64,000 nt of DNA, taken from assembly GCA_009782565.1 (NCBI GenBank), contig WRIU01000011.1:1-64000 (forward strand). The letters run 5' to 3'. The notes below the pieces were generated by a model. That model did no database searches and was not told the origin of the DNA. It saw only the letters and a list, made by a program, of their open reading frames with translations. How positions within the stretch are numbered: the first letter of the stretch is position 1; each line of letters starts with the position of its first letter. Positions 27,210-50,704 of the stretch are shown one piece after another. A program made the translations under genes and the position numbers. The stretch comes from Betaproteobacteria bacterium. GTDB taxonomy: Bacteria > Pseudomonadota > Gammaproteobacteria > Burkholderiales > Rhodocyclaceae.

Positions 27210-28097
27210 CTATCCGTGTTCTTCGTGGTGTGCCAGGGCTTCGTCGAACTGGTAAATCAGATCGTCGGCGATGTCGTCCAGGTCTGAGGCGGCATAGCCC
27301 AGGCAAACGGAGACGGCTTCGCGCGCCCGCATCCATTCCGCGTCCTGCACCGTGCGAAGGTGGGTGCTTGCGGCATACTCGGCCATTACGTTGATGGCGA
27401 TCAGGCGATGCGCTTCACTATTGATGTGTCGCGGGTCTTCGAGTTGGGCGTAGTCATGATGACAAAGAATGCCTTGGGTGATCGCATCCGCCAAACCCCA
27501 GGCGCGCGCGAGGTAATAGCCGATGATCGCATGGCTGGTTTCAAAGGCTTCTTCTTCGACGTCGGTGAATATCCGTTTGGTGTCCTTGTTGGCTTCGCGC
27601 AGGACGCCCTTGTATTCCGGATAGCGTTGCGTGAGCAAGGGAATGCCACAATCGTGAAACAGCCCGAAGGTATAGGCGGTATCCGGGTTGACCCGGCCTA
27701 CAATGGAAGCCAGGCGTTTCCCGGCTATGGCGGTATAACGGGAGTTGTCCCAAAAACGGTCGAGCGAAACGTTGTTGCCGTTGATGGAGTCTTGCAGGAG
27801 GGCTTCCCGCACCAGGTTGGTCAGGGAATCGTAACCAAGCGTATCGATCGCGTCCGAGATGGAAGAGATACGGCAGCCATTGCCGAGGAGCGGAGAATTG
27901 GCCATGCGGATAACGATGGCGGAAATCCCCGCGTCCTGGCTGACGAGTCCGGCGATCTTTTTGCTGTTGGTGGGCGTACTCTTCAGTTCGTCCATCAACT
28001 GAGTGAGAGTAGTCGGGCAAGCCGGGATGCTAACTCCGCGCAGAACCCTGTTTTCGATCTCGTTCATGTTGTAGAAATTTTTGTTTGCGCTCAACAA
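27210..28097 (-). CDS. HDOD domain-containing signalling protein
   Basis: LPACPTTLTQLMDELKS-type HDOD start, VSQDAGISAIVIRMANSPLLGNG. Confidence 0.85.
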   Translation of the reverse strand: MLSANKNFYNMNEIENRVLRGVSIPACPTTLTQLMDELKSTPTNSKKIAGLVSQDAGISAIVIRMANSPLLGNGCRISSISDAIDTLGYDSLTNLVREALLQDSINGNNVSLDRFWDNSRYTAIAGKRLASIVGRVNPDTAYTFGLFHDCGIPLLTQRYPEYKGVLREANKDTKRIFTDVEEEAFETSHAIIGYYLARAWGLADAITQGILCHHDYAQLEDPRHINSEAHRLIAINVMAEYAASTHLRTVQDAEWMRAREAVSVCLGYAASDLDDIADDLIYQFDEALAHHEEHG

Positions 28098-31511: not shown

Positions 31512-31543
31512 AAGAGGATGCTGAGTTAAGAGGATGCTGAGTT
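31512..31543 (+). repeat. 16-bp tandem duplication of RBS plus start region before modB
   Basis: AAGAGGATGCTGAGTT repeated directly at 31512-31527 and 31528-31543. Confidence 0.9.
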
Positions 31544-32232
31544 CGTCTGATCGAATAATGGATAGTTCCAGCCTCACGGCCATTTGGCTCACCTGCAAAC
31601 TGGCAACGCTGACAACCGCGCTCCTGCTTCTGATCGGGACGCCTATCGCTTGGTGGCTGGCCAATACCCGATCGCGCCTGAAAGGGCCGGTGGGCGCGCT
31701 AGTCGCCCTTCCGCTGGTGTTGCCGCCCACAGTGCTCGGGTTCTACCTCTTGGTCGCGTTCGGGCCACACGGTTTCATTGGGCGGGCGATGGACGCGCTG
31801 AATCTGCAACGGCTCCCCTTCACCTTTGCCGGACTGGTGGTAGCTTCCGTCCTGTATTCGCTCCCATTCGTGGTGCAACCCATCCAGAACGCGTTCGAGG
31901 CCATCGGCAAACGCCCGCTGGAGGCGGCAGCCAGTTTGCGGGCATCTCCCCTTGACGCGTTTTTCAGCGTCGCCCTGCCGCTGGCCCGCCCAGGCTTCGT
32001 GACCGCCGCCGTCCTGGGCTTCGCGCACACGGTGGGCGAATTCGGCGTGGTGCTGATGATCGGCGGCAACATTCCCGGCAAAACCCAGGTGCTGTCGGTC
32101 AAGATTTTCGACTACGTGGAAAACACCAACTACACGCAGGCGCACTGGCTGGCTGGCGGCATGGTGTTTTTCAGCTTCATCGTCCTGCTGCTGCTCTACA
32201 GCCGCCGCAAACAGGTAGGCTGGAACTGGTGA
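31534..32232 (+). CDS. modB: Molybdate ABC transporter permease
   Basis: [39 protein letters not shown]. Confidence 0.93.
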
Positions 32233-33296
32233 TGATCGGGCGTTTCCATATCGGCTACCCCGGCTTCACGCTGGACGTCGACCTGTCCGTGCCGGAGGCA
32301 GGCATCACGGCGCTGTTCGGTCCGTCCGGCTCCGGCAAAACTACGATCCTGCGCTGCATGGCCGGGCTGGAACGATCAAGGGAAGGCTTTTTGTCCGTTG
32401 CGGGCGAGGTGTGGCAGGACGAACGGCGCGGTATTTTCCTGCCTACCCACAAACGCCCGCTGGGGCTGGTGTTCCAGGAAGCAAGCCTTTTCCCTCACCT
32501 GTCCGTCCGGGAAAACCTCCGATACGGCATGAAGCGGGCGGGCAACGGCGAAGGGTTCGAAGCCATGCTCGACCTGCTGGGCATCCGCCCCCTCCTCGAC
32601 CGCGCCCCCGGCAGCCTTTCCGGCGGCGAGCGGCAGCGGGTCGCCATCGCGCGCGCGCTCCTTACTCGCCCACGGCTGCTACTGATGGACGAACCGCTCG
32701 CCGCGCTCGATATGAAGCGTAAGCTGGAAATCCTGCCCTATCTCGAAAAACTGCGCGACGAGCTTTCCATCCCCGTGCTCTATGTCAGCCATTCCCTGGA
32801 TGAAGTGGCACGGCTCGCCGACCAACTCGTGCTCATCGAAAACGGCCATGTCACGGCAAACGGGTCACTCACGGACATCCTGTCGCGGCCCGACCTCGCC
32901 GCCGCTTTCGCCGGGGAAACCGGCGCGGTGCTGGAAACGACAGTGGCCGAGCGCGAGGCGGATGGCCTCACACGGCTGGAATTCCCCGGCGGAAAACTCT
33001 ACATCGCCGGGGACGCGCACGCACCCGGAAACCGTTTGCGCTGCCGCATTCACGCCAGCGACGTCAGCCTCTCCTTGAGCGCGCACACGGACACCAGCAT
33101 CCTGAATACCCTGCCCGCCACGGTCGCCGCCATCGTCAACGCCGATACGCCCGGACATGTGCTCGTACAACTGCAACTCATGAATGGAGAAACCCTACTG
33201 CTGGCGCGCGTCACCGAACGATCCCGGCAGGCACTGGCTATCACGCCCGGACTCCCCGTCATTGCACAGGTAAAATCCGTGGCAATTCTGCGCTGA
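32229..33296 (+). CDS. modC: Molybdate ABC transporter ATP-binding protein
   Basis: [33 protein letters not shown]-terminal Mop domain. Confidence 0.93.
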
Positions 33297-33557: not shown

Positions 33558-35813
33558 ATGGATGACAAAAGCAGCATATTCTTCAAATATCGCAAGATCA
33601 TTCTTGCCGTAATCCTGTTCATGGTGGCAGACGCGATCGTCATCGGCATCAATTTCTACAACACTTACAAAGCCGATGAATCCGCCGTGTCGATCAACCT
33701 GTCCGGTCGGCAGCGGATGATGTCGCAACGCATGACCAAGGCGCTCCTGACAATGGACCGCAGCCTGGAAACAGGGGATGAGGATGGCGTCAAAACCAGC
33801 CTGAAGGAACTGACGCTGACCGTCAGGCGTTTCGACAGGACCCTGATGGGTTTCCGCGATGGCGCTATGGTCACTGGTGGCGACGACAACCCCACGTATC
33901 TTACTCAGGTTGATACGGACAAATCCCGGCAGTTCGTAGCGGACGCCTACGAGATATGGACTCCTTACATGAAGTGGCTGAAACCGCTGCTGAACGGCGA
34001 CAGGGAATCCTTCCTGGACGAAAGGTTCAAGCAAAAGCTGACGGATACACAAACACTGGAAGAAGTGAAAAACAAGTTCAAGGCGGAGGAGGCTTTCACC
34101 GATGAGGAATTCGCAAAGAAACTGGAATACATAAAGAACGACCCTGACGCATTCAGAGCCGATCTCAAGGCAGCAGTAGACTTCGCACTGGAAAAAAACC
34201 CGACACACAGTGAGCCGCAGAACAATCGGGCCGTCCTGAAGCTCATGAACGCCCTGACCACCGACCTGGAACACGTTGCCAATGAGCGAGCCGCGACTTT
34301 GCGGATCGTGCTGGTCGTCGGCATCCTGTTCGCGCTCTTTAACTTTAGCTACACCGTCGTCGTTTCGATCCGGGATTTGATAAGAGGCGACAGAAATCTT
34401 GCCCAAGCCCGTAAAGAGACGGCAGAAATTCTATCTACCGTGCGCGAAGGGCTATTCTTGCTGGACAAAGAAAAAAGGATCGGAACGCAGTTCTCGGAGT
34501 CTCTACCCGATATATTGAGAAGGGATATTGTACCGGGTTCGGATTTTCTGCCTCACCTCGAAGCAATCGCCCCCAGGAACATTTACGAAGCCGCCATGGA
34601 CTATATTGATCTGCTCCTCGGCGACAGGGTCAAGGAAGCCCTGGTGACCAGCCTCAACCCCCTCACAAACGTACCCGTCCTTGCTACCGACGTACGTGGC
34701 AACACCCAGACACGCTATCTGTCCTTCTTCTTCAACAGGGTCGTTGCGGAAGAGAAAATCTCGCACTTGCTGGTCACGGTACAGGATGTCACCGACAAGG
34801 TCGTGCTCACGCAACAAGTCGAGCAAGCGAAGAACCAGGCAAAAATCGAGGTCGAAACCCTGCTGCGGCTGGCAAGCAGCGATTTCGATTCGCTCAAGCA
34901 ATTCATTGACGGCGTTGGAGAATCGCTGGCACAAATCAACGAGAAGATGAGTACGCCCCATGACGATTCTCGTGAGCGCCTGCATACCCTGAACTACATC
35001 ATGCGTATCGTGCACAGCGTCAAGGGCGAAGCGGCGGCACTCGGCATCGACGTGCTGGAGGCCTACGCGCATGAATGCGAAAAGGAAATGGTCGCCATGC
35101 GCGAAGAGGATTCGCTCAGCGGCGATCAGATGTTGCGGCTGGCCGTGTTGCTGGAAGGCTTCTACCAGCGCCATTCCTCGCTCGCCCAGATCGTCTCCCG
35201 CCTTGGCAACGCGCTCGGCAAGACGCAGACTGCGGGTGAATGGACTGCCCAGAAACACCCGTTCGCGGATCACATCACCGCGCTCGCGCAGCGGATCGCT
35301 GTGGATCATGGCAAGCAGATCGAAGTCTCCTGCCAGTTTGAAAGATTCTTCTCCCTGCCCAAAGCCACGACAAAGGAATTACAGGACATTTCCATTCAAC
35401 TCGTGCGAAACGCCATGACGCACGGTATCGAAGTACCCAACAAGCGGACTGTTAACAACAAGCCGCCAACCGGCGCGCTAAGCCTCTGGTGTGAATACCT
35501 GGGCCACGGCCAGTACACCTTCACAGTGCGGGATGACGGATGCGGCATCGTCCCGGAGCGCCTGCGCGAGCATTTCGTGAAAAAGAACATCATAAGCCCA
35601 GAGGAAGCGGCTGCCCTGAGCGACCATGAAATAGCCAACCATCTTTTCCAACCGGGCATTTCGACCTCAGAGGCAGCCGATCAGGATTCCGGGCACGGTA
35701 TCGGGTTGGATGTAGTATTGGAAAAAGTGAGGGACATGGGCGGGTACATGCTGGTCAAGAGCCGCCCGAACCAGTTCACCGAATTCAGCATCCAGTTCAG
35801 CACGGTACATTGA
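33558..35813 (+). CDS. Membrane sensor kinase: PilJ/NarX-like sensor domain, cytoplasmic domain, Hpt, CheA-type ATPase
   Basis: SINLSGRQRMMSQRMTKALL P-box-like motif; second TM ~LRIVLVVGILFALFNFSY; Hpt HSVKGEAAALG; LVRNAMTHGIE and DDGCGI, GHGIGLDVV ATPase boxes; no CheW-like domain seen. Confidence 0.8.
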   Translation: MDDKSSIFFKYRKIILAVILFMVADAIVIGINFYNTYKADESAVSINLSGRQRMMSQRMTKALLTMDRSLETGDEDGVKTSLKELTLTVRRFDRTLMGFRDGAMVTGGDDNPTYLTQVDTDKSRQFVADAYEIWTPYMKWLKPLLNGDRESFLDERFKQKLTDTQTLEEVKNKFKAEEAFTDEEFAKKLEYIKNDPDAFRADLKAAVDFALEKNPTHSEPQNNRAVLKLMNALTTDLEHVANERAATLRIVLVVGILFALFNFSYTVVVSIRDLIRGDRNLAQARKETAEILSTVREGLFLLDKEKRIGTQFSESLPDILRRDIVPGSDFLPHLEAIAPRNIYEAAMDYIDLLLGDRVKEALVTSLNPLTNVPVLATDVRGNTQTRYLSFFFNRVVAEEKISHLLVTVQDVTDKVVLTQQVEQAKNQAKIEVETLLRLASSDFDSLKQFIDGVGESLAQINEKMSTPHDDSRERLHTLNYIMRIVHSVKGEAAALGIDVLEAYAHECEKEMVAMREEDSLSGDQMLRLAVLLEGFYQRHSSLAQIVSRLGNALGKTQTAGEWTAQKHPFADHITALAQRIAVDHGKQIEVSCQFERFFSLPKATTKELQDISIQLVRNAMTHGIEVPNKRTVNNKPPTGALSLWCEYLGHGQYTFTVRDDGCGIVPERLREHFVKKNIISPEEAAALSDHEIANHLFQPGISTSEAADQDSGHGIGLDVVLEKVRDMGGYMLVKSRPNQFTEFSIQFSTVH

Positions 35814-35828
35814 AAGAAAATCACAGAA

Positions 35829-36197
35829 ATGAAACTCCTGATCGTCGATGACTCCGCGCTCATCAGAAGCCGTATCGCCCGCATTCTGAATGACCCGAGG
35901 CTGAACACCATCCAGCTTCTGGGCATGGCCAGGAACGGCAAGGAAGCCATCATGCTCTTCCTGCAACACATGCCTGAGCTTGTAACAATGGACATCACCA
36001 TGCCCGAAATGGATGGAATAGAGTGCACGGAGAAAATGATTGAACTCCGCCACGATTGCAGCATACTTGTCATCTCCGCGTTGAGCGACAAGGCTACAGC
36101 CCTGAAAGCGCTGAAAAAAGGTGCGCGTGGATTCCTCTACAAACCATTTTCCGACGAAGACCTGATCGCGGCATTTTTGGAGCTTACAAGTCCATGA
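35829..36197 (+). CDS. CheY-like single-domain response regulator
   Basis: MKLLIVDDSALIRSRI...VTMDITMPEMDGIE...VISALSDKATALKALKKGARGFLYKPF. Confidence 0.92.
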   Translation: MKLLIVDDSALIRSRIARILNDPRLNTIQLLGMARNGKEAIMLFLQHMPELVTMDITMPEMDGIECTEKMIELRHDCSILVISALSDKATALKALKKGARGFLYKPFSDEDLIAAFLELTSP

Positions 36198-36691
36198 AAG
36201 GCATCAACGAAAAAGACATCCATATTTTCGTGGACGCGGTCAGCAACTTTTTCTTCCACGCAACCCAAGAAAAAGTAGAGATCAAAACCGCGTACCTGCT
36301 GGAAAACGATGTCCCGTCCTCCACATACGACCTGACCAGCTACATTACGCTGTCCGGAAGTTTCACCGGGCGCATCTATTTCTCCGCGCCGCGTACCATG
36401 CTGACTCATCTGCTGGTCGCGATGGGCGAGCAGACACGGGACAACGACCGCCTGCTCGATGCCGCCGGAGAAATCGCCAACACAATTTCCGGTAATGCAC
36501 GCAAACACTTCGGCGAAACAATGGAAATTTCGGTGCCAACCGCGCAGGCAACGGATCCCGATTGGCTGAAAACCGTCGTCTCACCACACTCCTACATCAT
36601 TCTCGTGAAATGGAAGCACTACCGGGCTTCCGTCGTTGTGGATATCCAGCGCGCCGATGTCCCGCTCATCGTACCGAAAGCGGAAAATTAA
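36194..36691 (+). CDS. CheX-like chemotaxis phosphatase domain protein
   Basis: LLDAAGEIANTISGNARK (D/S-x3-E-x2-N phosphatase-type motif); ATGA overlap with the CheY-like gene. Confidence 0.75.
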   Translation: MKGINEKDIHIFVDAVSNFFFHATQEKVEIKTAYLLENDVPSSTYDLTSYITLSGSFTGRIYFSAPRTMLTHLLVAMGEQTRDNDRLLDAAGEIANTISGNARKHFGETMEISVPTAQATDPDWLKTVVSPHSYIILVKWKHYRASVVVDIQRADVPLIVPKAEN

Positions 36692-36858: not shown

Positions 36859-37431
36859 GTGGATATGGGTCGCCGCGCTTTCCTGCGCGGCCAGCGTTTG
36901 TGCAGGATCGTGGCGCCATACCGTCCCCCTTGGGCAATGGCCGAGGCGTTTTTTACACGCGCCTGTACTCGTTGCGGCGCTTGCGTGATGGCGTGCCCCA
37001 CCGGGTTGCTCACACAAGGCACGGGAGGGTTTCCAGAAGCCAATTTCCAGCGGGCGCGTTGTACATTTTGCGCGGACTGCGCCCATGCCTGTGCGGAAAA
37101 CGCCCAACAAAGCACGTCACCCCAGCCACCGGCCTTGGCCTTTTCCCCCGATCTTCCGCCTTGGACGCTCCATGCCACGGTTAGCTCGGCCTGTCTGCCT
37201 CACCGGGGCGTATTGTGCCGTTCCTGCGAAGGCCATTGCGAGGCGGGAGCCATCCGCTTTGTCCCGCGCCCAGGCTCTCCCGCACAGCCGGACATCACAG
37301 GATCACATTGCACCGGCTGCGGCGAATGCGTGGCATCCTGCCCGGTTCATGCCATTTCCATGCAGGCTTTTCCGCCACACAATCCATCTGGCCTACATTC
37401 AACCCCTTTCCCGGAAAAACCCCCTCAATGA
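36859..37431 (+). CDS. napF: Ferredoxin-type protein NapF
   Basis: Multiple 4Fe-4S motifs CTRCGACVMACP, CTFCADCAHAC, CTGCGECVASCP; directly upstream of napD. Confidence 0.88.
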   Translation: MDMGRRAFLRGQRLCRIVAPYRPPWAMAEAFFTRACTRCGACVMACPTGLLTQGTGGFPEANFQRARCTFCADCAHACAENAQQSTSPQPPALAFSPDLPPWTLHATVSSACLPHRGVLCRSCEGHCEAGAIRFVPRPGSPAQPDITGSHCTGCGECVASCPVHAISMQAFPPHNPSGLHSTPFPEKPPQ

Positions 37432-37679
37432 AAATCGTCAGCCTCGTCCTGAAGTTCATGCCAGACTATGCCGATGAAATAAAAGCCGCCGTCGAAACCG
37501 TACCCGGAGCCAGTGTGGCAGCCGATAGCGGCGACGGGCGTATGATTGTTTTGCTGGAAGACGGCCCGGACTATGCCGTCTCCGACTCCATCATCCAAGT
37601 CCACCAAATCCCCCAAGTGATGTCTGCAACCCTTTCCTACGAATATTCGGATGAAGTACACGCTCTCGAGGAGAACTGA
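37428..37679 (+). CDS. napD: NapD chaperone
   Basis: Small NapD-like protein between napF and napA; ATGA-type overlap. Confidence 0.85.
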
Positions 37680-37680
37680 A

Positions 37681-40221
37681 ATGACCAACCGCCGCGACTT
37701 TCTGAAAACCCAAGCTGTTGCCACCGCTGCTGCGGCAGCCGGCATGACACTGCCTGTCACTAAAGCCATCGCCGACGATAACATCCGCTGGGACAAAATC
37801 CCCTGCCGTTTTTGCGGTACGGGCTGCTCAGTGCTGGCAGGCGTGCAGGGAGGCAGACTGGTTGCCACGCAAGGCGACCCGGACTCGCCCGTGAATCGTG
37901 GGTTGAACTGCATCAAAGGATATTTCCTGTCCAAGATCATGTACGGCAAGGACAGGCTCACGCAGCCCCTGCTGCGGAAGAAAGGCGGCAAATACGACAA
38001 GAATGGCGACTTCACGCCCGTTTCATGGAAAGAAGCCTTCGACATCATGGAACAAAAATGGAAAGAAGCCCTGAAGAGTTCCGGGCCGACCTCCGTCGCT
38101 ATGTTCGGTTCGGGGCAATGGACGATCTGGGAGGGTTACGCCGCTGCGAAACTGTACAAGGCCGGTTTCCGCTCCAACAACATCGACCCGAACGCCCGTC
38201 ACTGCATGGCTTCCGCCGTGGTCGGCTTCATGCGGACCTTCGGTATTGATGAACCGATGGGCTGCTATGACGACATCGAGAACGCCGACGCCTTCGTGCT
38301 CTGGGGCGCCAACATGGCGGAAATGCACCCGGTACTGTGGTCGCGCGTCACCGACCGCCGCCTGACCCACAAAGGCTGCCAAGTCCATGTGCTGTCCACC
38401 TTCGAGCATCGTTCGTACGAACTGTCCGACAACTCGATGATATTCCATCCGCAATCCGACCTGGCCATCCTGAACTTCGTCGCCAACTACATCATTCAGA
38501 GTGGCAAAGTTGACAAGACTTTCGTCGACAAGTGCGTCAACTTCAAGAAAGGCGTCACCGACATCGGCTACGGCCTACGTCCCGGTCATGACCTTGAGAA
38601 AAACGCCACCGCCAACGGCTATCCCGGCGCTGACGACAAACCCAAGGGCGACCCCGGCAAATCCGAGCCCATCAGCTTCGAGGAATACGCCAAGTTCGTC
38701 TCCGAATACACGCTGGAAAAAGCCGTTCAACTCTCCGGTGTACCTGCCGACAAACTCAAGAAGCTGGCCGAACTGTTCACCGACCCGTCCAAGAAAGTGG
38801 TCTCCTTCTGGACGATGGGCGTCAACCAGCACGTGCGCGGCACCTGGGTCAACAACCTGATCTACAACATCCACCTGCTCACCGGCAAGATTTCCAAGCC
38901 CGGCAACGGCCCCTTCTCCCTGACCGGGCAGCCTTCGGCCTGTGGCACGGCGCGGGAAGTCGGCACCTTCGCGCACCGGCTGCCCGCCGACATGGTGGTT
39001 GGCAATCCGGAGCATCGGAAATTGTCAGAGACCCTCTGGAAACTGCCCGAAGGGACAATCCCTGAGAAGGTCGGCCTACACGCCGTAGCGCAAAGCCGCG
39101 CCCTGAAGGATGGCAAACTCAAGTGCTACTGGACGTCCACAACCAACAACATGCAGGCCGGGCCAAACATCAACGGGGAAATTCTCCCCGGCTGGCGCAA
39201 CCCCAACGCCTTCGTAGTGGTCTCCGACGCCTATCCCACGGTATCCGCGCAATCTGCCGACCTGATCCTTCCCACGGCCATGTGGGCAGAGAAGGAAGGA
39301 GCCTACGGCAATGCCGAGCGGCGCACCCAGTTCTGGCGCCAGCAGGTCAAGGCACCAGGCGAATCCCGTTCCGACCTCTGGCAATACCTGGAATTCTCCA
39401 AGCGCTTCAAGGTGGAAGACGTCTGGCCGGCCGACCTGATCGACAAGAAGCCAGAATACAAGGGCAAGACCCTGTTCGATGTCCTCTTTGCCAACGGCGC
39501 TGGCAACAAGTTCCCCAAGGACAACGTAGCTGCCGTTGCAGCCAAGGCAACAAAGAACGTTTTCAAAGGCTACACCAACGACGAATCCGAATACTTCGGC
39601 TTCTACGTGCAGAAAGGCCTGTTCGAGGAATACGCGGCCTTTGGCCGGGATCATCATCACGACCTGAACGAGTTCGACACCTATCACCAATCGCGCGGCC
39701 AGCGCTGGCCTGTCAAGGATGGCAAGGAAACCTTGTGGCGCTTCAACGAGAAATACGACCCCTACGTCAAGAAGGGCGAAGGTATCAGGTTCTACGGGCA
39801 GAAAGACGGCAAGGCGAATATTTTCGCCCTGCCCTACCAACCGCCCGCTGAATCGCCGGACAAGGAATACGACCTCTGGATGTGCACGGGCCGTGTGCTG
39901 GAACATTGGCACACTGGCTCCATGACCCGCCGCGTTGAAGAGTTGCACCGCGCCGTACCGGAAGCGCTCGTCTACATGCACCCGGAAGACGCCAAGGCGC
40001 GTGGCCTGCAACAAGGCTCCAGGGTCAAGGTCATCTCCCGCCGGGGCGAGATCATGTTGCAAGTCGACACGAAAGGACGCAACAAGCCGCCTCGCGGCCT
40101 GGTGTTCGTACCCTTCTTCGACGAGCAAAAACTCGTCAACAAGCTCATCCTTGACGCCACCTGTCCGCTTTCCAAAGAAACGGACTTCAAAAAGAGTGCC
40201 GTCAAAGTGGTGAAAGCCTGA
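37681..40221 (+). CDS. napA: Periplasmic nitrate reductase catalytic subunit
   Basis: Tat signal [33 protein letters not shown] Fe-S motif, molybdopterin oxidoreductase. Confidence 0.98.
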
Positions 40222-40248
40222 GAAGTTTTTCGCTGAAAGCGCCAGGCC

Positions 40249-41181
40249 ATGAACGCGGAGAAAGCCGTTGAACGCGCCAAAACCCCGGAGAAACCCACGG
40301 TTTCTCCGGGGCGGCGGAAATTCCTCTCCGGAATGGCCGGGGCGGCTGGTGGCGGCTGCCTCATGGCAATGGGCGTTGGTATCTACTCCCGTCAGGCCAG
40401 TGCGCTCCCCGCGCTGGCTCTGCGGCCTCCCGGCGCACTGCCGGAGGCGGAATTTCTCGCAGCCTGCACACGTTGCGGCCTGTGCATCCGGGACTGCCCT
40501 TACGACATTTTGAAGCTCGCCGCACCGGGCGACCCCGTACCGACCGGGACGCCGTACTTCACGGCTCGAACCGGCCCATGCGAGATGTGCGAGGACGTTC
40601 CCTGCATCAAGAACTGTCCCACGGGCGCGCTCGACCCAAAGCTGCTGGTCGACGACGCCGACAAAGCGTCCGACGCCAAGCCCGACATCAACAAGGCGCG
40701 CATGGGGCTGGCCGTCCTTGTCGACCAGGAAAACTGCGTTGCTTTTCTCGGGCTGCGTTGTGAAATTTGCTATAACGCCTGCCCGCTTATCGGCAAGGCT
40801 ATTACGCTGGAAAAACGTCACAACCCCCGCTCCGACCGTCATGCCATGCTTCTGCCTGAGGTGCATTCGGAATACTGCACCGGCTGCGGCCTGTGCGAAA
40901 AATCCTGCATCCTGGAAGAAACAGCTATCAGGGTGCTGCCGCCCACACTGGCTCAAGGCAAGGGTGGCGAACATTACCGCAAGGGATGGGAAGAACGGGA
41001 AAAACACGGCGGCTCGCTGATCGGCGACCAGTTGGAACTCCCGGTACGCGGGCTGGAACACAAGCGATTCGGGGATACCCGTGTCTACGAGGACACGCCC
41101 ACGGACACCGGCCCCGGCATTGACCCTCCACCCTTTGATCCGAGTTTACTCAACGGTTCTGATCCGGAGGCCAAGCCATGA
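40249..41181 (+). CDS. napG: NapG ferredoxin-type quinol dehydrogenase component
   Basis: CTRCGLCIRDCPYDIL, CEMCEDVPCIKNCPTGAL, CTGCGLCEKSC; Tat-like N-terminus. Confidence 0.95.
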   Translation: MNAEKAVERAKTPEKPTVSPGRRKFLSGMAGAAGGGCLMAMGVGIYSRQASALPALALRPPGALPEAEFLAACTRCGLCIRDCPYDILKLAAPGDPVPTGTPYFTARTGPCEMCEDVPCIKNCPTGALDPKLLVDDADKASDAKPDINKARMGLAVLVDQENCVAFLGLRCEICYNACPLIGKAITLEKRHNPRSDRHAMLLPEVHSEYCTGCGLCEKSCILEETAIRVLPPTLAQGKGGEHYRKGWEEREKHGGSLIGDQLELPVRGLEHKRFGDTRVYEDTPTDTGPGIDPPPFDPSLLNGSDPEAKP

Positions 41182-42176
41182 GCGCCAGCAGCCAGAACAG
41201 GCCCGGACAGGACGCCATCGCCAGCAAGGGCTGGCTTGCGGCTCACAAGTGGCTGCTATTGCGTCGTATCAGCCAGTTGTTCATCCTGGCTCTCTTCATG
41301 ATCAGCCCGTGGCTCGGCATCTGGATCAGCAAGGGCAGTTCCTCCTCCAGTTCCGAACAAGAGGCTTTGTCCCTGGTCAATACGGGCAATCTGGTCTCCA
41401 GCATACCCACCGGTCTTACACAGAAGGCTCCGCCCTCAACCGATGTTTTCTGGATCATCAAAGGCAACCTGTCCTCCAGTCTCTTGCTGGACACTGTGCC
41501 CCTGACCGACCCCTACATCTTCCTGCAAATGCTTGCAGCGGGCTTCCTGCCTGCCGCGACAGCCGTTATCGGCGCGCTCATCCTGGCCGCCTTTTACATG
41601 CTCATCGGCGGGCGTGTGTTCTGTTCCTGGGTTTGCCCGGTCAACATGATTACCGACGGTGCCTCATGGGCGCGTCGGCGCTTCAATATCAAATCCAACC
41701 ACGCACCCCACGCTAATACCCGCTATTGGTTCCTGGCCGGAACGTTCGTTGCTGCCGCGATTACCGGAACCTTGGCCGTGGAATGGGTCAACCCGGTCTC
41801 AATCGCCCATCGCGGCCTGTTTTTCGGCATGGGCGCGGGGCTGTGGATTCTCGTTGCCCTGTTTCTTTACGATTTGTTCGTCGCCAGCCGAGGCTGGTGC
41901 GGTCACCTTTGCCCGATGGGCGCGTTCTACAGCCTGCTCGGCAAAACCGCCCTGCTGCGCGTGGCGGCTCCCCTCCGGGATGCCTGTGACGACTGCATGG
42001 ACTGTTTCGTTATCTGCCCTGAACCTCAGGTCATTCGTCCTGCACTCAAAAAAGTGGGGCAGAGCACCCCTGTCATTCTCGATTCCCGTTGTACGACCTG
42101 CGGACGCTGCATAGACGTTTGCAGCAAACAGGTTTTCAGACTCACCCATCGCTTCGACCAGAGGAGTTCATCATGA
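41178..42176 (+). CDS. napH: NapH quinol dehydrogenase membrane component
   Basis: CSWVCPVNMITDGASWARR, CGHLCPMGAFY, C-terminal CTTCGRCIDVC. Confidence 0.95.
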   Translation: MSASSQNRPGQDAIASKGWLAAHKWLLLRRISQLFILALFMISPWLGIWISKGSSSSSSEQEALSLVNTGNLVSSIPTGLTQKAPPSTDVFWIIKGNLSSSLLLDTVPLTDPYIFLQMLAAGFLPAATAVIGALILAAFYMLIGGRVFCSWVCPVNMITDGASWARRRFNIKSNHAPHANTRYWFLAGTFVAAAITGTLAVEWVNPVSIAHRGLFFGMGAGLWILVALFLYDLFVASRGWCGHLCPMGAFYSLLGKTALLRVAAPLRDACDDCMDCFVICPEPQVIRPALKKVGQSTPVILDSRCTTCGRCIDVCSKQVFRLTHRFDQRSSS

Positions 42177-42628
42177 AAAGACGCTTCCTTGCTATCGTCC
42201 CGACTGCCGTACTAGCAACGAGTTTGATGTTGCTCACCGGCATTTCCCAAGCAGCAGATGACGGCGGTCTTGCTACGTTGCGTGGCGCACCCGTTTCGGC
42301 GGCGGAGAAGTCGCCCACTGGCGACGGGCTCAAGAAGGCGCTCGAAACCGCGCCGGTGGATCGTAATTTTGAGGATCAACCGCCATTGGTGTCGCACGCG
42401 GTGGATGAGTATCCTGTCACCAAGGACTTCAACAAGTGCATGGACTGCCACTCCGAAGCGAATTACAAAAAGGAAAAGGCCACCAAAGTCGGAAGTTCCC
42501 ACTACAAGGATGCAGCCGGAAATCAGTTGAAAGCCATTTCATCTCGCCGCTACTTCTGTGTGCAGTGCCATGTTCCCCAGGTTGATGCCAAACCACTGGT
42601 CGGTAACACCTTCACAGGCCCGAAATAA
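42173..42628 (+). CDS. napB: NapB diheme cytochrome c
   Basis: CMDCH and CVQCH heme motifs, RRYFCVQCHVPQVDAKPLVGN. Confidence 0.95.
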   Translation: MKRRFLAIVPTAVLATSLMLLTGISQAADDGGLATLRGAPVSAAEKSPTGDGLKKALETAPVDRNFEDQPPLVSHAVDEYPVTKDFNKCMDCHSEANYKKEKATKVGSSHYKDAAGNQLKAISSRRYFCVQCHVPQVDAKPLVGNTFTGPK

Positions 42629-42654
42629 TCCCCTATCAACTGTCAGGCGCATAG

Positions 42655-43347
42655 ATGATGGATACCGATCAACCTGATAACGCTCCCGCTCCCGCCCAGA
42701 AAACGAAACGACGGCGGAAGCGGGAGAAGAAACGCCTCGTGTCGGTTTCCGTCGTAGTGGCCTTCGTTTTGGGCGTCCTGTTCCTGGGTATTTTCAACAC
42801 AGTGCTGGACTGGGCATACACGGAAGAGTTCTGTATCAGTTGTCACGAAATGAAGGACAACGCGTATCAGGAATACCAGTACAGCGCCCACTTCACCAGC
42901 CGTAGCGGTGTACGGCCAACTTGCAAGGATTGCCATCTACCGGAGAAAGGTCTCTTCAAGATCATCCGCAAGATTGAGGCGTCCAACGATATTTGGCATA
43001 ACCTGTTAGGTTCCATCAACACGCCTGAAAAGTACGAGGAAAAACGCGCGGTATTGGCACAAAGAGAATGGCAGCGCATGAAAGCCAATGACTCGCAGGG
43101 ATGCCGTAATTGCCACGATCCAAACTCTTTCGACTTCAGCAAGCAAGGCTACCGTTCCGTCCAGCAGCACGAAGACGGGTTGTTGTTGAAAGGGCAGACC
43201 TGCATCGATTGTCACAAAGGCATCGCGCATCGCCTGCCGAGAATCGACCAGAAAATCAACCAAGCCGATCCGCCAGGTATCTTGGAGGAGATTTTCCGGT
43301 CTATCGCCGTTCAGAAAGAAGAAACCTCCAACGAACAAACAAAGTAA
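42655..43347 (+). CDS. napC: NapC/NirT family tetraheme cytochrome c
   Basis: Four heme motifs CISCH, CKDCH, CRNCH, CIDCH; N-terminal TM anchor. Confidence 0.93.
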   Translation: MMDTDQPDNAPAPAQKTKRRRKREKKRLVSVSVVVAFVLGVLFLGIFNTVLDWAYTEEFCISCHEMKDNAYQEYQYSAHFTSRSGVRPTCKDCHLPEKGLFKIIRKIEASNDIWHNLLGSINTPEKYEEKRAVLAQREWQRMKANDSQGCRNCHDPNSFDFSKQGYRSVQQHEDGLLLKGQTCIDCHKGIAHRLPRIDQKINQADPPGILEEIFRSIAVQKEETSNEQTK

Positions 43348-48937: not shown

Positions 48938-50704
48938 ATGAGTGAAACCAAACGCAGCCCCTTCGTCGGCTGGCTTATTTTTCTCGTCGCCTTGGTAGTT
49001 GTTTTCGTGCTCGGGTTGCTCGCAGCCGGCATCACGGAAAAGCGCGCGGAAGTCGCTTCTGTCTTTAATAACCAAAGGACAGAGATTCCCAGCACCAAGC
49101 CCACTTTCGTTGCTTCCAAGATGCCTTCTAAAGAGCATGAGAAGATGAAAGTGGAAATCGCCCCCTCCACGCCTGCCATTGATGGGCGTAACGATGTGTG
49201 GGGGAAAGACAATTTCCCACGGGAATTCGACTCCTGGAAGAAAACCAGGGAAACCACTGGAAACAACGAGTTCAAGAGCAGGTATCTCGGCAACAACGAG
49301 GAAGACGTGCTGCAAGAACGGCCGAACATGGTCATACTTTGGGCCGGATACGCGTTCTCCCGTGATTACTCTGCTCCGCGCGGTCACTGGTATACGCTAC
49401 ACGACATGCGTAAATCGCTTCGTACGGGCGCGCCTGGTGTAGCGAAAGATAAAGAGGGCAACCTTCTTCCAGCCGGGATTGGGCCAGGCAAACAAGATTT
49501 GCAGCCCGGAACCTGCTGGACCTGCAAGAGCCCGGACGTACCGCGCATGATGCAGGAAATCGGCCTCGAGAAATACTACGGTTCTTCGTGGAGCGACCTT
49601 GGGAAGGAAATAGTCAATCCTTTGGGTTGCGCGGATTGTCATGATCCCAAGACGATGAACCTCTCTATCTCCCGTCCGGCGCTGGTCGAAGCTTACAAAC
49701 GGGGCGGCAGGGACATCACCAAGGCCACGCCGAACGAAATGCGTTCCCTCGTCTGCGCCCAATGCCACGTCGAGTACTATTTTGCCGAAGGCGGCAGCAG
49801 GTACCTGACGTTCCCGTGGGATCTGGGCAATTGGAAGAAGGAAGGCGACCCCTTCATCAGCGTCGAGGAAATGGAAAAGTACTATGATCAGCCTATTTTC
49901 GGCGAAAACCAAAAGCCTTACGCTGACTGGACGCACGCATTGAGCAAGGCACCGATGCTCAAGGCGCAACATCCGGACTGGGAACTTTGGGCCATGGGTA
50001 CACACGGCAAGCGCGGTGTTTCATGCGCCGACTGCCACCTGCCTTACGTAGTTGAGGGCGGCGTCAAGTACACTGACCACCAGATCATGAGCCCGCTCAA
50101 GAACGTCGCCAGAACTTGCCAGACCTGTCACCGTGACAGTGAAGAGAAGCTCAAAGGCTACGTCTATGACCATCAGGACAAAATCCTTGAGATACGTGAC
50201 CGCGTCGAGCTCGAACTCGCCAAGGCGCACATCATGACCAAGGTGCTGCTGGATAGCGGAAAAGTGACTGCTGACAGCGCGGAGATCAAGCCCGTGCATC
50301 AACTGCTCCGTGAGGCTGGCTGGCGTTGGGACTATGGTGTCGCCTCTCACGGTGGCCCCTTCCACGCGCCAGTAGAAACGGCTCGCATCCTCTCGGCCGC
50401 CCTTGAAAGGAGCCTGCTCACGCAGATTGAAGTGCAAAAGCTGCTCACCAAGTACGAGGTCACGGTAACATTCCCCGACCTCTCCACCAAGGCGAAAGCG
50501 CAAGCCTACGTCGGCCTCAACATGGAAAAACTCAGAGCAGAGAAGGCTGAGTTCATGAAGACGGTCGTTCCTCAGTGGATCGAAGACGCCAAGGGCAGAG
50601 GCAAGGTGTCTGATCCCGACCTGCTGAACCAGTACAAGAACTATGAATACCGCCAGGTAGATGGCCCGCCTAGCCATCCAATACCGACTGTTCAGCCTCA
50701 ATAA
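48938..50704 (+). CDS. nrfA: Ammonia-forming cytochrome c nitrite reductase (pentaheme, CXXCK)
   Basis: CWTCK active-site heme motif plus four CXXCH (CADCH, CAQCH, CADCH, CQTCH). Confidence 0.97.
   Translation: MSETKRSPFVGWLIFLVALVVVFVLGLLAAGITEKRAEVASVFNNQRTEIPSTKPTFVASKMPSKEHEKMKVEIAPSTPAIDGRNDVWGKDNFPREFDSWKKTRETTGNNEFKSRYLGNNEEDVLQERPNMVILWAGYAFSRDYSAPRGHWYTLHDMRKSLRTGAPGVAKDKEGNLLPAGIGPGKQDLQPGTCWTCKSPDVPRMMQEIGLEKYYGSSWSDLGKEIVNPLGCADCHDPKTMNLSISRPALVEAYKRGGRDITKATPNEMRSLVCAQCHVEYYFAEGGSRYLTFPWDLGNWKKEGDPFISVEEMEKYYDQPIFGENQKPYADWTHALSKAPMLKAQHPDWELWAMGTHGKRGVSCADCHLPYVVEGGVKYTDHQIMSPLKNVARTCQTCHRDSEEKLKGYVYDHQDKILEIRDRVELELAKAHIMTKVLLDSGKVTADSAEIKPVHQLLREAGWRWDYGVASHGGPFHAPVETARILSAALERSLLTQIEVQKLLTKYEVTVTFPDLSTKAKAQAYVGLNMEKLRAEKAEFMKTVVPQWIEDAKGRGKVSDPDLLNQYKNYEYRQVDGPPSHPIPTVQPQ

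Follow-up and report, generated by a model that had tools for sequence, protein, structure and literature searches.

Accounts of how proteobacteria sense nitrate usually center on NarX/Q-NarL/P, NasS-NasT, NasR and nitrate chemoreceptors. One such chemoreceptor, McpN of Pseudomonas aeruginosa (PA2788), has a PilJ periplasmic domain and signals via the Che pathway; the N-box motif published for PilJ domains that bind nitrate is [IVL][ND]xAGxQRML[ST]Q, and R61 of McpN makes hydrogen bonds to nitrate (PMC6381276). NarX and NarQ likewise place a PilJ-type periplasmic nitrate sensor on a membrane kinase, share the nitrate contact motif G-x-x-R, and act through HAMP, GAF-like and DHp domains and the DNA-binding NarL or NarP (PMC8199190). 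NasS-NasT is a soluble sensor/RNA-binding pair found in nitrate-assimilation operons (PMC3795266).

We analyzed a sensor kinase, a CheY and a CheX-like phosphatase (the trio) carried on a 64,000-nucleotide stretch of DNA, referred to as the window, and compared them with these systems. The kinase has a PilJ periplasmic domain with an N-box like that of McpN, but it is fused to Hpt and ATPase domains and has no MCP domain. It resembles NarX and NarQ in its sensor, whereas its remaining parts and partners are an Hpt, a CheA-type ATPase, CheY and CheX. P1 (Hpt) and P4 (ATPase) are common to the kinase and CheA by sequence, and P4 also by fold; unlike CheA, the kinase lacks both P3 and the CheW-like P5 and has its own transmembrane sensor. 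The CheX-like protein has the Pfam domain (PF13690) and ExxN motif of the CheX family of CheY-P phosphatases, and its activity is predicted here; unlike that family, it is paired with a CheY of its own within a non-canonical trio. Like NasS-NasT, the trio occurs in nitrate-assimilation operons, many of them headed by a nasT-like gene, but it is predicted to be a membrane phosphotransfer system. These results suggest a widespread nitrate-signalling module in which a nitrate sensor is joined to a CheA-like kinase that lacks CheW. If this is true, the chemotaxis-style trio in Comamonadaceae, Methylotenera and other nas operons would be an added route that has no DNA-binding output.

Architecture and conservation of the trio

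The first-pass annotation had described a nitrate-type sensor joined to an Hpt and a CheA-type ATPase with neither CheW nor DHp, followed by CheY and, in ATGA overlap, by CheX. We found that this unusual system is real, and that its neighbors are modBC and napF as claimed (Table 1). All four domains proposed for checking were matched in Pfam: PilJ (6.7e-9, residues 36-104), Hpt (6.3e-8, 446-519) and HATPase_c (2.6e-13, 610-747) in the kinase, and CheX downstream. PilJ, Hpt (PF01627) and HATPase_c (PF02518) were present in 42/42 aligned kinases, and neither CheW (PF01584) nor H-kinase_dim gave a Pfam match in the window kinase or in any of the 42 aligned relatives. The CheA dimerization domain P3 (PF02895) had no match in the 42 members, and the structural model has no separate P3 hairpin. 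By NCBIfam the C-terminal half of the kinase is nearest to CheA (CheA_Halo, 3.5e-38) but scores well short of the thresholds for calling it CheA. The kinase and CheY genes are 15 nt apart, and the ATGA at 36194-36197 is the CheY stop overlapping the CheX start. The trio encodes no DNA-binding output, as had also been proposed: its CheY is a single-domain receiver.

Table 1. Features of the trio and its surroundings, in window coordinates
Feature	Position	Strand	Description and basis
modB-modC	31534..33296	+	molybdate transporter, upstream of trio; names from similarity and context
Sensor kinase ORF, 751 aa	33558..35813	+	two TM, PilJ-type periplasmic domain, PAS-like, Hpt, CheA-type ATPase
Nitrate box INLSGRQRMMSQ, residues 46-57	33693..33728	+	conservation, match to published motif
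Cytoplasmic PAS-like domain (predicted), residues 298-410	34449..34787	+	AlphaFold secondary structure, strong family conservation
Hpt/P1 four-helix bundle, residues 443-552	34884..35213	+	Pfam, model, invariant H486
CheA P4-type ATPase, residues 569-748	35262..35801	+	Pfam, conserved motifs, Foldseek
CheY, 122 aa	35829..36197	+	single receiver domain, Response_reg 2.2e-25 (Pfam)
CheX-like phosphatase, 165 aa	36194..36691	+	CheX PF13690 4.6e-16 (Pfam), ExxN motif E93/N96
Perfect FNR-like box TTGATATAAATCAA	36770..36783	+	upstream of napF
napF-D-A-G-H-B-C	36859..43347	+	periplasmic nitrate reductase operon, downstream; context

An AlphaFold model built from the 42-sequence kinase alignment had a mean pLDDT of 85 and a pTM of 0.51, the latter too low to fix the inter-domain arrangement. 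In order along the chain, it places two TM-containing helices around a helical sensor bundle, then the PAS-like domain, a signalling helix (412-440), the Hpt bundle and, after a brief linker of low confidence, the ATPase, where the chain ends. The PAS label follows from strand and helix order and is a putative assignment, with no Pfam PAS match for residues 298-410. Foldseek confirmed the CheA P4 fold for the ATPase (E about 1e-12). With the sensor-domain model alone it returned no PDB match below E 0.001, and NarQ and other helical sensor domains were among those listed. The family profile matches P1 and P4 of CheA as well as 6gcv, the nitrate-binding domain of McpN (3.3e-7).

Residues expected of a phosphotransfer chain are fully or almost fully conserved. 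The putative phospho-acceptor H486 (codon 35013-35015) is invariant in the family, and the ATPase residues N618, D659-D660-G661 and G712/G714/G716 are invariant or nearly so. CheY D55 and K105 are kept in all relatives compared; in CheX, which has diverged from solved CheX structures (best E 0.13), E93 is found in 90/91 relatives and N96 in 91/91. From these residues, both phosphotransfer and phosphatase action are predicted.

Relatives that cover the kinase core were found in about 15 of the 399 genomes of the order, and named genomes of Beta- and Gammaproteobacteria contribute at least 80 loci. Among 88 loci whose flanks are long enough, 87 have CheY and CheX after the kinase; the three genes are thus a conserved unit. 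A plasmid search gave distant matches only, none reaching 80% query cover, and a role in anti-phage defence was rejected after PADLOC gave no match. In the open-access literature searched we found no description of the trio or of its linkage to nitrate operons; an Alteromonas paper with cheX in a nitrate context was set aside, as cheX appears there in an orthogroup table only. As this search covered mainly open-access papers, the novelty of the trio is provisional.

The nitrate box and the ligand

The assignment of a nitrate-type sensor held up: in addition to the PilJ match, the contact residues of the N-box are kept, with G50 and R53 of the window kinase matching the G-x-x-R of McpN and NarX. 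The window box fails the strict N-box at two conservative positions (A to S and L to M), and the strict pattern is found in 32/80 relatives. The GRQR contact core is present in 73 of 87 distinct kinases, and conservation averages 3.2 bits in the box vs 1.6 across the whole periplasmic sensor domain. Family f44, Dechloromonas and some other members keep the kinase with the box lost or altered. In family f44, genome G168 has two diverged kinase copies (L042 and L043), and neither has the nitrate box.

Kinases with the GRQR core lie beside nitrate or N-oxide genes in 36/73 cases vs 1/14 for the others (Fisher p=0.003, a value that is too optimistic, as the sequences are related and ancestry is uncorrected). 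Because the core is kept in an otherwise variable sensor domain, and because kinases without it are rarely nitrate-linked, nitrate as the input of the trio is well supported by sequence comparison. The repeated linkage to nas, nrt and nir operons described below lends this earlier reading independent support. It is unlikely that the ligand is instead a different small anion or a by-product, such as nitrite, an NO-related species or sulfite: NarX and NarQ also bind nitrite and sulfite (PMC6381276), one member of the family stands beside a nor-type cluster and some clades have lost the box, but the box is of the McpN type, which is specific for nitrate, and nitrate is what the majority of the linked genes act on.

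Linkage to nitrate genes

The linkage of the trio to nap that the first-pass annotation had noted did not hold as a general rule. Linkage to nap was seen only in the window and in one further locus (L051), from a metagenome bin labelled Azoarcus, and the kinase of L051 (8001-10145) reads GRQG, with the contact Arg lost. The sensor of L051 may be degenerate or re-specified. In the closest relative (L050), from another Azoarcus bin, the modC-trio order is kept, the modC end preceding the trio is 77% identical to that of the window, and nap lies elsewhere in the genome. In the window itself, nap is probably transcribed from a separate promoter rather than as the tail of a trio operon, because the perfect FNR-like box falls between cheX and napF, within the 167 bp that separate them. 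The host genome encodes Crp/Fnr-type regulators, and the position of the box is not conserved in L051. When one mismatch is tolerated, FNR-like boxes number 11 in the window vs 1.7 expected in shuffles; several of these 11 lie within genes.

Elsewhere in the window, moa genes lie downstream of napFDAGHBC. A cytochrome c552 of the NrfA type follows nap and moa (48938-50704) and suggests that the host reduces nitrate to ammonium, and an HDOD-domain protein is encoded upstream of the mod/nap region (27213-28097, minus strand).

The commonest context of the trio is a nitrate-assimilation operon of the order nasT-nrtA-nrtB-nrtCD-[kinase-CheY-CheX]-nirB-narK-nirD-nasA, found in Polaromonas, Ramlibacter, Methylotenera and others. 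In these operons HMM matches identified nrtB, nrtCD, nirB, nirD, a narK-family gene and the nasT-like ANTAR regulator, and nrtA and nasA were named from similarity and position. Judged from the kinase tree, linkage to nas is not a single inherited accident, because well-supported branches force at least seven changes of this linkage. The NrtA/NasS homologue in nas-linked operons nearly always has an export signal, and therefore no cytoplasmic NasS is adjacent. One trio copy adjoins the nor-type cluster mentioned above. The matched records include named isolates (Polaromonas sp. JS666 and several Ramlibacter), which makes direct testing possible.

Output of the trio

Taken together, we consider it likely that the three proteins form a self-contained phosphotransfer module for nitrate sensing, with an output at the protein level. 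By analogy with McpN and NarX, periplasmic nitrate would bind at the interface of the dimer, in the N-box of the PilJ-type helical bundle; we infer both this ligand and the direction of the response to it. The signal would then pass from TM2 through the PAS-like domain and the signalling helix to Hpt H486, which the attached CheA-type ATPase would phosphorylate with neither CheW nor a separate receptor. The phosphate would move from H486 to CheY D55 and be removed by CheX, and CheY~P would act by binding a protein target. Candidate targets are the machinery of type IV pili or, for those members linked to nas, the control of nitrate uptake and assimilation.

The first-pass annotation had proposed an output to motility or to protein-protein interaction. 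The second part stands as our best inference; flagellar motility as the output fared poorly. CheY~P could in principle bind the flagellar switch and drive nitrate taxis, given that the host genome carries flagellin genes and, at other loci, clustered CheW-domain genes, and that a PilJ N-box is able to drive nitrate taxis in McpN (PMC6381276). Yet no FliG is encoded in 25 of the 51 trio genomes, some of them drafts but two (G130 and G202) single contigs, and the trio contains neither the signalling domain of an MCP nor CheW, CheR or CheB, so that we regard flagellar taxis as very unlikely. Overall, the comparison across genomes makes a nitrate input more credible, and a nap-specific role and a flagellar output less so.

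An output to type IV pili, in which CheY~P would tune extension or retraction in response to nitrate, is a tentative possibility. PilT-family ATPases are present in 52/52 trio genomes vs 323/399 across the order, a comparison weakened by the high background (81%) and by the relatedness of the trio genomes. The host genome has a Pil-Chp-like cluster, but in the loci examined pil genes do not recur next to the trio. Two PilJ-domain proteins only are encoded in this genome: the window kinase and the presumed Pil-Chp receptor, which adjoins a ChpA-like 2,000-aa gene. Beside trios outside nitrate operons, no common output gene was found in the loci examined.

In nas-linked operons, where NasT is present and the NrtA/NasS homologue nearly always carries an export signal, the trio might supply the nitrate signal. 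That the output is nitrate uptake or assimilation, for example via NasT or a transporter with the trio replacing NasS, seems rather doubtful overall: the trio does sit inside nasT-nrtA-nrtB-nrtCD-nirB-narK-nasA operons that have no NasS of the cytoplasmic kind beside it, but the NasT receivers of these operons are without the phosphorylation lysine and acidic pocket, which makes direct phosphotransfer unlikely. NasT was accordingly rejected as a direct phospho-target, and any link between the trio and NasT would have to run through protein binding, since the NasT receiver does not look phosphorylatable. In the window host NasT cannot be the output, because its genome has no ANTAR protein; the same search was positive in 34 other trio genomes. 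A more specific proposal is likewise doubtful: that CheY~P, together with a CheA-like receptor kinase free of CheW, exerts direct control over nitrate uptake or assimilation, or over NasT antitermination, replacing NasS, with no transcription-factor response regulator.

Two further features of the nas-linked loci were observed alongside the protein-level module favored here. The NasT-like ANTAR proteins (L066:2370-2945 and other nas-linked loci) combine degenerate receivers with the lack of an adjacent cytoplasmic NasS. A PP2C phosphatase-Ser/Thr kinase fusion is encoded in or near trio-bearing nitrate-assimilation operons (L066:14968-16665 and 15 further loci from one gene cluster).
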